Shown: positions 1,837-62,102 of the stretch, in pieces
Position numbering within the stretch: position 1 is the first letter of the stretch
How the letters are laid out: each line of letters starts with the position of its first letter
Origin: Planctomyces sp. SH-PL14
GTDB taxonomy: Bacteria; Planctomycetota; Planctomycetia; Planctomycetales; Planctomycetaceae
Direction of reading: 5' to 3'
Assembly: GCF_001610835.1 (NCBI RefSeq)
Contig: NZ_CP011270.1
Coordinates: forward strand, 2,126,001 to 2,190,000
Length of the DNA stretch: 64,000 nt
Program-made: the position numbers and the translations under genes
Notes under the pieces: generated by a model
What the model saw: only the letters and a program-made list of their open reading frames with translations
The model's database searches: none
What the model was told of the DNA's origin: nothing

Positions 1837-2367
1837 TCAAAGCAGGATGTCGGCCCGCGGCTGCAGCCCCGCATCGTTCTCCAGATCGGCGGCAATGTCC
1901 GCAAGCCGCCGCCCCGTCACCGGGTGCCGCGTGTCGGGAGCGATCTCGGCCAGCGGGATCGCCACGAACGCTCGCGTCGCGATGTCTGGGTCGGGGATCG
2001 TCAGGCCCGCCTCGCGAGAGACCCAGTCGTCATAAAGGCCGATGTCGAGATCGATCGTCCGCGGGGCGTTCCGGTTGTCGGGATCGCGAACGCGACCGAG
2101 GGTCGCCTCGATCTCCCGCAGCCGCTCTTTCAGTTCAGCCGGCGTCAGCGCCGTCTGCAGGTGAATGGCCCCGTTGCAGAAGTTGGCCTGGTCCGCGAAC
2201 CCGACGGGAGGGGACTCCCAGACGCGCGACGCCCGGACCACGCGGCCCAGCCGCTCCAGAAGCCTCCGCGCCGCGGGAAGACACTCCGCGGGACGGATGT
2301 TCGACCCCAGCAGCAGAAGAGCGTCATGCAGCGCGCCGGGGGGGGGCGGGGGGGAGCTACTCGCCAT
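1837..2367 (-). CDS. folK: 2-amino-4-hydroxy-6-hydroxymethyldihydropteridine pyrophosphokinase
   Basis: 176 residues, typical for HPPK, which transfers pyrophosphate from ATP to 6-hydroxymethyl-dihydropterin in folate synthesis. Recognised by LLLGSNIRP near residue 20, the ESPPVGF and NFCNGAIHL segments, and the metal-binding stretch RTIDLDIGLYDD with its DxD. It is the last gene of a three-gene operon and its ATG overlaps the folB stop by 11 bp, suggesting translational coupling. The N terminus (MASSSPPPPPG) is encoded by long C tracts and is an extension not needed by the fold. Confidence 0.95.
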   Translation of the reverse strand: MASSSPPPPPGALHDALLLLGSNIRPAECLPAARRLLERLGRVVRASRVWESPPVGFADQANFCNGAIHLQTALTPAELKERLREIEATLGRVRDPDNRNAPRTIDLDIGLYDDWVSREAGLTIPDPDIATRAFVAIPLAEIAPDTRHPVTGRRLADIAADLENDAGLQPRADILL

Positions 2368-2752: not shown

Positions 2753-3502
2753 TCAAACGTCGCGGGGAACGACGAGCTGTTGCCCGCCCGTGACGTGAAG
2801 AACCTCGCCGTTGACGAAGTCGTTCGTCAGGAGGAATTCGACCGCATCCGCAATGTTGTGCGGACCGCCGACTCTTTGGACCGGAATTCGGCCGGCCAGG
2901 GCTTCGAATTCCTCCCGACCGAATCCGGGAGGGGGAAGGATCGCCCCCGGCGCCACGCCGTTGACCCGGATCCGGGCCCCCAGTTCCTGGGCCAGAAGCT
3001 GCGTCATGGCGGCGAGGCCCGCCTTGGCGACCGTGTAGCCGGCCTGTCCCGGAACGGGATGCGTCCCCCGCCAGTCGATGATGTTCACGATATCGCCCGC
3101 CGTTCCGGCGGGAAGCTGTCGGGCCAGGGCTTGGCTGAGAAAGAACGGGCTCTTGAGATTGATCGCCTGGTGCCGGTCCCAGGAGGCCTCGGTCGTCTCT
3201 TCGAGCGTGGCGTTCTCGAAGATGGCGGCCGAGTTGATGAGGATGTCAGCCGTCCCGAACTTCGCCCGGACCGCGGCGAAGATTGTTTCCGCCGCCCGGA
3301 CGGGGTCAGCCAGATCGGCCGAGACGAATTCGATGTGCCGTCCCTGCTGGCGAAGTCGTTCGCAGACCGCGGCGGCCTCGTCGACAGACCGGCCGCAGTG
3401 GAGGAGGATCCGGGCACCGCGTTCCGCGAGGCGTTCGACGATTGCCCGTCCGATGCGGACTGCGCCTCCGGTCACGATGGCGGTCCGTCCTTCGATCGTC
3501 AT
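2753..3502 (-). CDS. SDR-family pteridine reductase-like protein (PTR1/FolM type)
   Basis: 249 residues, Rossmann-fold short-chain dehydrogenase. The cofactor loop is TGGAVRIGRA (residues 11-20) and NSAA is at 90-93. The catalytic positions are N115, D143, Y156 and K160: an Asp stands where most SDRs have Ser, with Asp+13=Tyr and Tyr+4=Lys. This D-Y-K pattern is known from trypanosomatid pteridine reductase PTR1. With folB and folK immediately downstream, a role in reducing dihydrofolate or a related pterin is likely; this is inference. ATG 3502 is preceded by GGGGAGG, a strong ribosome-binding site, so the long upstream extension of the frame, which runs into repeat copy A, is not coding. 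Confidence 0.85.
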   Translation of the reverse strand: MTIEGRTAIVTGGAVRIGRAIVERLAERGARILLHCGRSVDEAAAVCERLRQQGRHIEFVSADLADPVRAAETIFAAVRAKFGTADILINSAAIFENATLEETTEASWDRHQAINLKSPFFLSQALARQLPAGTAGDIVNIIDWRGTHPVPGQAGYTVAKAGLAAMTQLLAQELGARIRVNGVAPGAILPPPGFGREEFEALAGRIPVQRVGGPHNIADAVEFLLTNDFVNGEVLHVTGGQQLVVPRDV

Positions 3503-3614
3503 GAGCCTCCCCTTCACTCGGCGATGCATTCTATGGCGATGATAGAGGGTTGGTGGCTCCAGATTCAGGCACTTGCAGAAATCGGAGGCCTGCGCCGATG
3601 AGTGCCCCATCTCA

Positions 3615-3927
3615 CCGGGTCCAGGGGCACCCTGGTCAGGGGGTGCAGGGGGCAGAATGCCCCTTGCCCGCCGGAGGCCTGGCCGTCGAGAGATGTCTGA
3701 AGGAGCGCGTCTCCAGACGCGGACACCGTGCCGTATGCCCCTCACCTAAGACGCGGGGATTGCAAAGCGAGCGTGGAGTCCTCAACGCCGGTTCCACAAA
3801 GGGGACACCCGTTGCTTACCACGGTTCCTCAGAGAAGCGCCTCCGGCGGCAAGGGGTGACCCCCTTGACCCCGGCCGCCGTCGCACGTTGGGTTTGAGCT
3901 ATGGATGCTGTGCCGGCGAGGACGCGG
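3615..3927 (-). repeat. dispersed 0.3-kb hairpin-rich element, copy A
   Basis: Near full-length copy on the minus strand, running from CGCGTCCTCGCCGGCAC (3927 side) to the GGACCCGG end (3615 side). It begins ten bases after the stop of the RND gene and occupies the gap to the pteridine reductase. It has the GGCCAGG subtype in its 3' half (written CCTGGCC on the plus strand near 3678). No convincing ORF; the frames crossing it are shared by all copies only because the DNA is shared. Confidence 0.85.
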
Positions 3928-7162: not shown

Positions 7163-7475
7163 CCGTCCTTGCCGGCTCAGCGTTGTTTGCTCAAACCCAA
7201 TGTGCCACGGCAGTCTGGGGTCAAGGGGGCCACGCCCCCTTGCCGCCGGAGGCGCTTCCATGAGGAACCGTGGGAACAACGGACGCCCCCTTTGTGGGAC
7301 CGGCGTTGAGGACTCACCGCTCGCCCTGAAATCACCGCCGGTTGGTGAGGGGGCATCCGACAGGGTGTCCGCGTTTGGACACGGCGCGCTTCAGACATCT
7401 CTCGACGGCCAGGCCTCCGGCGGGCAAAGAGGCGTTGCCCCTCTGCACTCCCCACCAGGGGGACCCTGGACCCGG
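7163..7475 (+). repeat. dispersed 0.3-kb hairpin-rich element, copy B
   Basis: Full-length copy in plus orientation between the divergent end of the RND gene and the rpoC terminator. It shows the 5' hairpin GGGGGC CAC GCCCCC, the GCCGCCGGAGGC box, GAGGAACCGTGG, TTGGTGAGGGGGCAT, the GACGGCCAGGCCTCC junction and the 3' CCCTGGACCCGG end. It shares the variant TCGCCCTGAAATCAC segment with copy C. Both neighbouring genes are on the opposite strand. Confidence 0.9.
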
Positions 7476-25150: not shown

Positions 25151-25481
25151 CGTCCTGGCAGGCACGGTTCTGCCAGCTCAAACACAACGTGCCACGGCAG
25201 CCCGGGGTCAAGGGGGCCTGTGTTGTTTCTTTGGCCCCCTTGACCCCGGAGGCGCTTTCGTTGAGGAACCGTGGGACACAACGGACGTCCCCTTTGAGCA
25301 AACGGCGTTGAGGACTCACCGCTCGCCCTGAAATCACAGCCGGTTGGTGAGGGGACATCCGGCACGCTGTCCGCGATTGGACACGAGATCCTTCAGGCAA
25401 CTCTCGACGGCCAGGCCTCCGGCGGGCAAAGGAGCGTTGCCCCTCTGCACTCCCCACCAGGGGGGCCCCCTGGACCCCAGG
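25151..25481 (+). repeat. dispersed 0.3-kb hairpin-rich element, copy C
   Basis: Full-length plus-orientation copy. Its 5' hairpin is enlarged to 17-bp perfect arms CCGGGGTCAAGGGGGCC (25202-25218) / GGCCCCCTTGACCCCGG (25233-25249) with loop TGTGTTGTTTCTTT. Other copies except H have only a 3-nt loop here. It has the GACGGCCAGGCCTCC subtype and a 3' CCAGGGGGGCCCCCTGG hairpin. Confidence 0.9.
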
Positions 25482-36672: not shown

Positions 36673-36989
36673 CCGTACCCGCCGGCGCGGCGTTGTTCGC
36701 TCCAACCCATCGTGCCACGGCGGCCTGGGGTCAAGGGGGCCACGCCCCCTTGCCGCCGGAGGCACTCCTGTGAGGAACCGTGGTAAGCAACAGACGGCCC
36801 TTTGTGGTACCAGCGTTGAGGACTCCACGCTCGCTCTGAAGTCCCCGCGGATTGGTGGGGTGGCATCCGGCACGGTGTCCGCGGTTGGATACTCCCTCCT
36901 TCAGACATCTCTCGACGAGAGGGCCTCCGGCGGGCAAAGGGGCGTTGCCCCTCTGCACTCCCCACCAGGGGTGAACCCCTGGACCCCGG
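36673..36989 (+). repeat. dispersed 0.3-kb hairpin-rich element, copy D
   Basis: Full-length plus-orientation copy whose 3' end (GGACCCCGG) stops two bases before the stop codon of the convergently placed membrane-protein gene. It carries the GACGAGAGGGCCTCC subtype. The 3' hairpin is CCAGGGGTGAACCCCTGG. Confidence 0.9.
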
Positions 36990-52581: not shown

Positions 52582-52905
52582 CCGTCCTCGCCGGCACGAC
52601 TCCCATAGCTCAAACCCATCGTGCTACGGCAGCCTGGGGTCAAGGGGGCCACGCCCCCTTGCCGCCGGAGGCATTTCGGTGAGGAACCGTGGTACACAAC
52701 GGACGTCCGTTGTGTGGTACCCGCTATGAGGACTCCCTCAACCTGTCCCGCTGGCTTTGCAATCCCCGCGGGTTGGTGAGGGGGCATCCGGCACGTTGTC
52801 CTCGCTTGGAGACGTGCTCCTTCAGACAGCTCTCGACGAGAGGGCCTCCGGCGGGCAAAGGGGATTCTCCCCTCTGCACTCCCCGACCAGGGTGCCCCTG
52901 GACCC
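52582..52905 (+). repeat. dispersed 0.3-kb hairpin-rich element, copy E
   Basis: Full-length plus copy between two divergent genes. It has the GACGAGAGGGCCTCC subtype. Its start CGTCCTCGCCGGCACG and 5' flank TAGCTCAAACCCATCGTGC match copies G and A closely. Confidence 0.9.
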
Positions 52906-55595: not shown

Positions 55596-55620
55596 AGGCG
55601 GACCTGCGCCGTGTTGCGAA

Positions 55621-55812
55621 CCGGCGACGAGGACTCCCTCAGGACACACCGCTCGCTTTGCAATCCCAGCGGGTTATGTGGGGGGGGCATACGGCACATT
55701 GTCCGCGTCTGGACACACACTCCTTCAGACAGTTCTCGACGGCCAGGCCTCCGGCGGGCAAGAGGGCGTCGCCCCCTTGCATCCCCTACCAGGGGTACCC
55801 CCTGGACCCCGG
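55621..55812 (+). repeat. dispersed 0.3-kb hairpin-rich element, copy F (5'-truncated)
   Basis: Begins at CCGGCGACGAGGACTCCCTC and keeps the 3' two thirds. The 5' hairpin, GGAGGC box and GAGGAACCGTGG segment are missing. It has the GACGGCCAGGCCTCC subtype and the full 3' end. It starts 26 bp after the zinc-ribbon stop and precedes glgC. Confidence 0.88.
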
Positions 55813-59891: not shown

Positions 59892-60214
59892 CCGCGTCCT
59901 CGCCGGCACGACCCCCATAGCTCGAACCCAACGTGCGACGGCAGCCGGGGTCAAGGGGGCAACCCCTTGCCGCCGGAGGCACTTCCACGAGGAACCGTGG
60001 TAAACAACGGATGTCCCCTTTGTAGGACCAGCGTTGACGACTCCCTTACATCACATAGCTCGCTTTGCAGTCCATGCGTATTGGTGAGGGGGCACACGGC
60101 ACGTCGTCCGCGCTTGGACACGAGTTCCTTCAGACATCTTCCGACGAGAGGGCCTCCGGCGGGCAAGAGGGCTTCGCCCCCTTGCATCCCCCACCAGGGT
60201 GCCCCTGGACCCGG
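59892..60214 (+). repeat. dispersed 0.3-kb hairpin-rich element, copy G
   Basis: Full-length plus copy. Start CGCGTCCTCGCCGGCACG and 5' flank TAGCTCGAACCCAACGTGC resemble copy A most closely; subtype GACGAGAGGGCCTCC. Lies between divergent NfeD-like and beta-CASP genes. Confidence 0.9.
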
Positions 60215-61740: not shown

Positions 61741-61770
61741 AACAAGTTGCCAAAACGCGGCGCCCCCTTA

Positions 61771-62102
61771 CCGGGTCCAGGGGCACCCTGGTGGGGGATG
61801 CAAGGGGGCAACGCCCTCTTGCCCGCCGGAGGCCTGGCCGTCGGGAGATGTCTGAAGGAGCACGTGTCCAAACGCGGACACCGTGCCGTATGCCCCCTCA
61901 CCAACCCGCGGCAATTGCAGGGCAAGCCGTGAGGTGTGAAGGAGACCTCATAGCCGGTCCCCAAAAGGGGACGTCAGTTGTTTGCAGCGGTTCCTCGTGG
62001 AAGCGCCTCCGGCAGCAAGGGTCTGTGTTGTGCTTCTGGGCCCTTGACCCCGGCTGCCGTTGCAAGCTGGGTTGCGCGAATGGCCCGGTCCGGCAAAACG
62101 GC
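61771..62102 (-). repeat. dispersed 0.3-kb hairpin-rich element, copy H
   Basis: Minus-orientation copy with a diverged 5' end. Its 5' hairpin has a loop segment CTGTGTTGTGCTTCTGG (plus strand) with arms CAAGGG / CCCTTG. The loop is related to that of copy C but inverted relative to the rest of the element. Subtype GACGGCCAGG. It begins 31 bp after the beta-CASP stop. Confidence 0.85.

Follow-up and report, generated by a model that had tools for sequence, protein, structure and literature searches.

A FolM/PruA/PTR1-type reductase encoded with folB and folK: a candidate dihydrofolate or dihydropterin reductase in the folA-less planctomycete Planctomyces sp. SH-PL14

The first gene of a compact folB-folK unit in the genome of Planctomyces sp. 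SH-PL14 encodes an SDR of the PTR1/FolM/PruA type. We consider it highly probable that this protein is some kind of pterin/folate reductase. On balance, we lean towards the view that it is an NADPH-dependent reductase of the FolM/PruA/PTR1 kind, which fulfils the role of dihydrofolate (or dihydropteroate) reductase in a planctomycete that possesses thyX and lacks folA. It is the best-placed candidate for a dihydrofolate reductase (DHFR) in this genome.

The gene is located in a window of 64,000 nucleotides, which is the whole stretch of DNA analysed here (positions 2,126,001 to 2,190,000 of contig NZ_CP011270.1). All positions given below refer to this window unless stated otherwise. The host genome is represented by one contig of 8,442,773 bases and is 100% complete.

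Gene organization and general features of the SDR

The SDR consists of 249 residues and is encoded on the minus strand, with an ATG at position 3502 and a stop codon at 2753-2755 (Table 1). The frame on the plus strand of the same interval (2753-3502) is open too, yet it is antisense to the SDR and was rejected. The position of the SDR gene ahead of folB and folK, as given in an earlier sequence-only reading of this DNA, was borne out; the order is SDR-folB-folK, and we add that this tight unit is located on the minus strand. The SDR and folB genes are separated by 30 nt, while folB and folK overlap by 11 nt.

Table 1. Features of the SDR-folB-folK unit (window coordinates)
Feature	Position	Strand	Basis
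PTR1/FolM/PruA-type SDR, first gene of the unit; candidate dihydrofolate/dihydropterin reductase	2753..3502	-	ORF, profile, structure, tree
TGGAVRIGRA (T11-A20), TGx3RxG cofactor loop with Arg16	3443..3472	-	motif
Asp143 codon; column occupied by Ser/Thr in most other SDRs	3074..3076	-	alignment
Tyr156 codon (YxxxK)	3035..3037	-	alignment
Lys160 codon (YxxxK)	3023..3025	-	alignment
FolB-family protein (dihydroneopterin aldolase; resembles FolX too), sole PF02152 match found in this genome	2357..2722	-	profile
FolK (6-hydroxymethyldihydropterin pyrophosphokinase)	1837..2367	-	profile

The protein passes the cut-offs of PF00106 and PF13561 and displays the SDR fold with the YxxxK motif (Y156/K160). 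Its scores with two curated models were 224.5 bits for NF006597 (PRK09134; cut-off 281 bits) and 204.9 bits for NF006598 (pteridine reductase PRK09135; cut-off 288 bits). Since both values are below the respective cut-offs, the SDR is not assigned to either of these families. The nearest named relatives, encoded in two loci (L169 and L170) of 'Planctomycetaceae bacterium', share 54% identity with it.

Both downstream genes were recognized by the corresponding profiles: FolK scored 119.4 bits with TIGR01498 (cut-off 54.1), and FolB scored 83.1 bits with TIGR00525 (cut-off 72.15). The score of the FolB-family protein with the FolX model NF008418 was 108.8 bits, which is below the cut-off of 152 and compares with 226.5 bits for E. 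coli FolX. The protein shows 40% identity with E. coli FolX and 38% with FolB. Residues E22, Y54, and K100, which we take to be the catalytic residues, were invariant in a seven-row alignment that included E. coli FolX. Judged from these similarities, the single FolB-family protein may cover both the aldolase and the epimerase steps.

A repeat roughly 190 nt long is scattered over the window, at positions 7276-7466, 25278-25468, 36786-36976, 52707-52897, 55610-55800, and 60015-60205. Identity of the other copies with the reference copy lies at 61-89%, and similar fragments were located at 3604-3772 and 61760-61927. Translated words similar to this repeat were found in stop-to-stop ORFs beside folP and beside two RibD_C matches elsewhere in the genome, so that the repeat is probably a genome-wide family.

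Catalytic residues and cofactor loop

Residues 11-18 of the SDR read TGGAVRIG and conform to TGx3RxG; the catalytic residues are D143, Y156, and K160. The sequence-only reading had listed the TGGAVRIGRA cofactor loop, which corresponds to residues 11-20, and the D143-Y156-K160 set with Asp in place of the usual Ser; both are present in the 249-residue translation exactly as described. The value that it attached to the PTR1-like arrangement of these residues was overstated. Namely, an Asp followed by Tyr at +13 and Lys at a further +4 represents ordinary SDR spacing, and just two characters are therefore informative, the replacement of Ser by Asp and that of Gly by Arg in the cofactor loop. The Arg of TGx3RxG has been described as specific to pteridine reductases (PMC13259868; PMC1971073).

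Among the SDR matches retained from the genome, these two characters are confined to one protein. Among the 32 SDR matches (E <= 0.001), this SDR alone has R16 or D143; the other 31 have neither, and 29 of these 31 carry Ser or Thr in the Asp column. Relatives were collected by a scan of GTDB species genomes, in which 580 relatives matched and the best 80 were retained as named loci. R16, D143, and Y156 were conserved in all 80 named homologues (best 80 of 580), and position 160 was occupied by Lys in 76 and by Arg in four of them; these counts are biased, because the loci were fetched by peptide patterns, one of which contains DWR.

Deviating sets of catalytic residues occur among FolM-like SDRs of other planctomycetes. 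Five of them (G023, G056, G110, G141, and G147) have Cys instead of the catalytic Asp and retain Arg16. In G018 (locus L108), the FolM-like SDR encoded immediately before FolB has His at the position of the catalytic Tyr.

Conservation of the linkage to folate genes

FolB and FolK are encoded within approximately 2 kb of the SDR in all seven sampled genomes of the family. FolB is located directly downstream in five of these seven, and 1.4 kb lies between the SDR and FolB in the remaining two (G048 and G069). In the wider phylum, FolB was also found beside the SDR in G010, G018, G027, G052, G072, G088, G098, G101, and G126, and as a fragment in G057; the distant planctomycete G088 displays the order folE-SDR-folB-folK. 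Among the named loci (best 80 of 580 relatives), 53 have FolB as a same-strand neighbour of the SDR, no more than 154 nt away from the ORF end; the corresponding number for FolK is 21. Linkage of the SDR to folB, folK, and folE recurs across many phyla.

One planctomycete family (G027, G052, and G072; loci L114, L115, and L118) shows a peculiar arrangement, in which the FolB and FolK matches lie in one ORF, likely a fusion, beside a FolM-like SDR on the opposite strand.

These patterns bear on the reading that the SDR acts on a substrate that is neither a pterin nor a folate and stands beside folB by chance. SDRs are very diverse, and the protein misses the cut-offs of both of its best curated NCBIfam models. 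Even so, we hold this reading to be most unlikely, given the invariance of R16, D143, and Y156 in the pattern-biased set of 80 homologues and the recurrence of the folate-gene linkage in so many phyla.

Structural similarity and phylogeny

A sequence search against the PDB gave Brucella FolM chains as the best match of the SDR (148 bits). With the AlphaFold model of the SDR (mean pLDDT 93.5) as the query, Foldseek placed Brucella FolM chains at ranks 1-7 (35% identity; TM 0.90-0.91 by query length), T. brucei PTR1 at rank 8 (32% identity), and FabG chains from rank 10 onwards. All 50 rows listed were SDRs. The structure-based placement thus agrees with the one foreseen in the sequence-only reading. 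The ranking obtained with VIA-align was rejected as a guide to function, because SDRs with many different functions tied in it (Z 33.4-34.5), the top rows being L-rhamnose dehydrogenase; fold alone, accordingly, does not settle the function.

A quick maximum-likelihood tree was built from 92 rows, which include Brucella FolM and E. coli FolM and leave out PTR1 and PruA. The SDR grouped with four members of its own family (SH-aLRT 96) inside a 49-row clade (SH-aLRT 98), which also comprised sequences from Chloroflexota, Cyanobacteriota, Omnitrophota, and Pseudomonadota as well as Brucella FolM. E. coli FolM and chain 3gem formed a long separate branch outside this clade, and eight other SDRs of the same genome were placed apart from the SDR. 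The branch uniting all pteridine-type SDRs had a support of only 80. Of the window and locus rows in the SDR's clade, 34 out of 48 have FolB in their locus, versus 4 of 33 in the other large planctomycete-rich group; these counts refer to loci of unequal length and leave out the contig-end FolB fragment of G057.

Taken together, the motifs, the Foldseek ranking of the predicted model, and the tree, in which PTR1 is not represented, support the placement of the SDR in the PTR1/FolM/PruA group. The earlier proposal, which derived a dihydrofolate or dihydropterin reductase from the linkage to folB and folK, stands as far as this placement is concerned; the choice between the two reactions stays at the level of a candidate assignment.

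Comparison with characterized reductases

Like the SDR, the type represented by Brucella FolM (5tgd, 5bt9) and Agrobacterium PruA possesses the Arg and the Asp-Tyr-Lys set, as seen in alignments with Brucella FolM. The Brucella protein is just about 35% identical to the SDR, and the latter differs in adjoining folB-folK in a genome without folA. The FolM structures from B. suis and B. canis (148 bits) are closer to the SDR than is E. coli FolM (61 bits), and they presumably represent the same protein as the PruA homologue of B. abortus. Agrobacterium PruA and this B. abortus homologue are reported to reduce dihydrobiopterin, dihydroneopterin, and dihydromonapterin; the same source describes dihydrofolate as not an effective substrate for PruA and reports the highest activity of a P. 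aeruginosa homologue with dihydrofolate (PMC13259868).

E. coli FolM (dihydromonapterin reductase, NP_416123.1) has TGGGRRIG and shares with the SDR the Asp, +13 Tyr, +4 Lys arrangement. The two proteins display 29% identity over 132 residues. Phe95 of the SDR presumably occupies the place of the pterin-stacking Phe113 of PTR1, and E. coli FolM has Trp where the SDR has Phe95. Also, unlike the SDR gene, E. coli folM is not adjacent to folB, and E. coli has folA. Dihydrofolate was described as a poor substrate for purified FolM, which was argued not to serve as a DHFR 'in bacteria expressing FolA' (PMC5587915). Since that argument is worded for FolA-expressing bacteria, it need not apply to bacteria without folA.

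The TGx3RxG motif is common to the SDR and trypanosomatid PTR1 (T. brucei, 2c7v and others; PMC1971073). PTR1 additionally has a salvage role, in which it reduces folic acid and fully oxidised pterins. Oxidised pterins were reported not to be acted on by E. coli FolM, Xylella PD0677, or PruA (PMC1971073; PMC13259868).

The model for TmpR-type pteridine reductases (NF012208) was matched by all 26 members of the SDR alignment, but these proteins match many general SDR models too, and NF012208 was absent among the 25 best models of the SDR. The soil pteridine reductase AEW5_Tri01, which was found by drug selection, confers trimethoprim resistance on E. coli (PMC8066302). The resistance conferred by this soil enzyme suggests that FolA can be circumvented by means of such a bacterial pteridine reductase.

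Folate-related gene content of the genome and the family

A profile search with PF00186 (DHFR), which gave matches in 9 of 14 control genomes, detected no folA in the genome examined here or in any of the seven sampled genomes of its family, this one included. All seven possess thyX and lack thyA; one thyX was present in this genome, and two matches were found in G137. The survey for folA, thyA, and thyX proposed in the sequence-only reading has thus revealed thyX only, and a canonical folA was not found. PF02152 (FolB) had one match in each of the seven genomes.

The search for aromatic amino acid hydroxylases (PF00351) gave no match in any of the seven, so that the known consumer of tetrahydromonapterin was not seen. 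E. coli, which contains tetrahydromonapterin (PMC1971073), was likewise without a PF00351 match when used as a control. The missing hydroxylase, therefore, does not exclude a pterin role.

Two matches to PF00809 were identified in the genome, namely FolP, which is encoded apart from the SDR unit, and a domain in an ORF of 1377 codons, which is probably MetH. The 204 upstream codons of the folP ORF match no Pfam family. A flavin-dependent DHFR2 fused to FolP was consequently not seen, because no second Pfam domain was found in this ORF.

Some RibD_C proteins can replace DHFR, as reported from work on mycobacteria, and the genome has five matches to PF01872 (RibD_C), namely RibD and four additional ones. 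One of these proteins, or a bifunctional RibD, might accordingly be the DHFR, with the SDR performing another pterin step. We consider this to be very improbable. Within the family, the extra matches occur sporadically, which makes this a weaker rival: 8 of 13 family genomes have none beyond one RibD-like match, and one of these eight has no match at all. The 13-genome sample overlaps with the seven genomes surveyed for folA, thyX, and FolB in this genome (G000) and G024 only. Furthermore, three of the four extra proteins of this genome reach no NCBIfam cut-off, the fourth (L252) being outside that scan. L252 (positions 5774398-5774985 of the contig) is interrupted by an in-frame stop codon and is possibly a defunct gene.

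Distribution across the phylum

Among 149 sampled planctomycete genomes, folA was present in 54 and thyX in 72, both genes occurring together in just one; 71 of the 72 thyX genomes thus lack folA, and the two genes are nearly mutually exclusive. A strong thyA match coincided with folA in 50 of the 54 genomes, 18 genomes with a best thyA match below 90 bits having been excluded from this thyA set of 50. The quality of the assemblies varied, with 88 of 149 reaching a completeness of 90% or more and a contamination of 5% or less; 38 of these 88 possess folA.

FolM-like SDRs were recognized in 49 planctomycetes. This number is a lower bound, with motifs checked in fetched hits only; it includes the five proteins with Cys for Asp and the one with His for Tyr (G018), and the scores of several FolM-like hits do not exceed those of FabG-like hits. 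Among the 71 genomes with thyX and without folA, a FolM-like SDR was found in at least 35. The SDR is clearly associated with thyX (Fisher p 1e-4) and weakly with the absence of folA (Fisher p 0.046), neither value being corrected for kinship. A clean phylum-wide swap of folA for the SDR was not seen: folA was also present in 12 of the 49 genomes with a FolM-like SDR, and 58 of the 100 without a recognized one lack folA. The PF00351 hydroxylase occurs in 6 of the 49.

Thirty-six thyX genomes contain neither folA nor a recognized FolM-like SDR, and 24 of the 149 genomes have no folA, thyX, or strong thyA match. Many of the assemblies are incomplete, and another DHFR may be missing in these two groups of genomes.

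Proposed role of the SDR

The gene content of the genome favours the role of a dihydrofolate reductase for the SDR. We infer its substrate, its cofactor, the order of glutamylation, and its physiological role as follows. FolB and FolK from the SDR unit would yield hydroxymethyldihydropterin pyrophosphate, from which FolP, encoded elsewhere, would form dihydropteroate. After glutamylation, the SDR would reduce the dihydro form to tetrahydrofolate, with NADPH held by the TGx3RxG loop and with Asp143, Tyr156, and Lys160 supporting proton and hydride transfer. Since ThyX, unlike ThyA, does not convert tetrahydrofolate to dihydrofolate, a slow reductase would be enough. Cells that rely on ThyX have been described as having no need for a high DHFR capacity but as still requiring some DHFR (PMC1971073).

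The preference of the characterized PruA and Brucella relatives for dihydropterins counts against this role. The SDR might instead be a dihydropterin reductase in the sense of PruA and FolM, which, together with the FolX-like FolB, would make tetrahydromonapterin or a similar compound for signalling or for an unknown enzyme. Dihydrofolate would then be reduced by an unrecognized protein, or reduced folate would be taken up, as was proposed for the folA-less anammox planctomycetes of Ca. Scalindua (PMC12213060). The closest solved structures are those of Brucella FolM, which shares the well-supported clade of the SDR, and the PruA homologue of B. abortus is reported to have a PruA-like substrate profile (PMC13259868). 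The FolB neighbour scores higher with the FolX model than with the folB model, though below the FolX cut-off, and some planctomycetes have the SDR along with folA or the PF00351 hydroxylase. Conversely, the lone PF02152 match must act as the aldolase if the cell synthesizes folate de novo through the standard pathway, and the linkage extends to FolK, an enzyme of the folate pathway. The lack of PF00351 matches in the seven family members also speaks against a dihydropterin role, which would, moreover, leave the organism without an identified DHFR. We regard this role as possible but not as the one to be expected, and retain reduction of dihydrofolate (or dihydropteroate) as the preferred reading.

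Implications

Several elements of this picture are not new. A study published in 2007 described FolM as DHFR1, the TGx3RxG motif, the presence of folM in clusters of folate genes, and the case of Parachlamydia, which possesses folM and lacks folA (PMC1971073). De Crecy-Lagard et al. (2007) also pointed out that ThyX is used by many bacteria in which no DHFR can be recognized, and that the genes for DHFR in these bacteria awaited identification (PMC1971073). The new elements are the extent of the FolB-linked branch and a one-contig genome in which a search for the usual DHFR alternatives remained largely without result. A literature search of titles and abstract openings, with closed journals outside its scope, found no claim of an SDR as a planctomycete DHFR.

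In 2025, folA was reported to be missing in all Scalindua MAGs of a study on the planctomycete Ca. Scalindua, and a supply of tetrahydrofolate from other bacteria was inferred; the terms FolM and pteridine reductase are absent from the main text of that paper (PMC12213060). The SDR candidate bears on this published reading, which takes the loss of folA in planctomycetes as a sign that they depend on other organisms.

A one-contig genome with thyX and without folA, in which FolB occurs once and a single SDR of the pteridine reductase type belongs to the folB-folK unit, offers a one-protein test of the missing-DHFR question. More tentatively, the FolB-linked branch of FolM/PruA-type SDRs, with members in Planctomycetota, Chloroflexota, Cyanobacteriota, Omnitrophota, and others, might represent the long-missing DHFR of many thyX-dependent, folA-less bacteria, for which this planctomycete family would be a clean test case.
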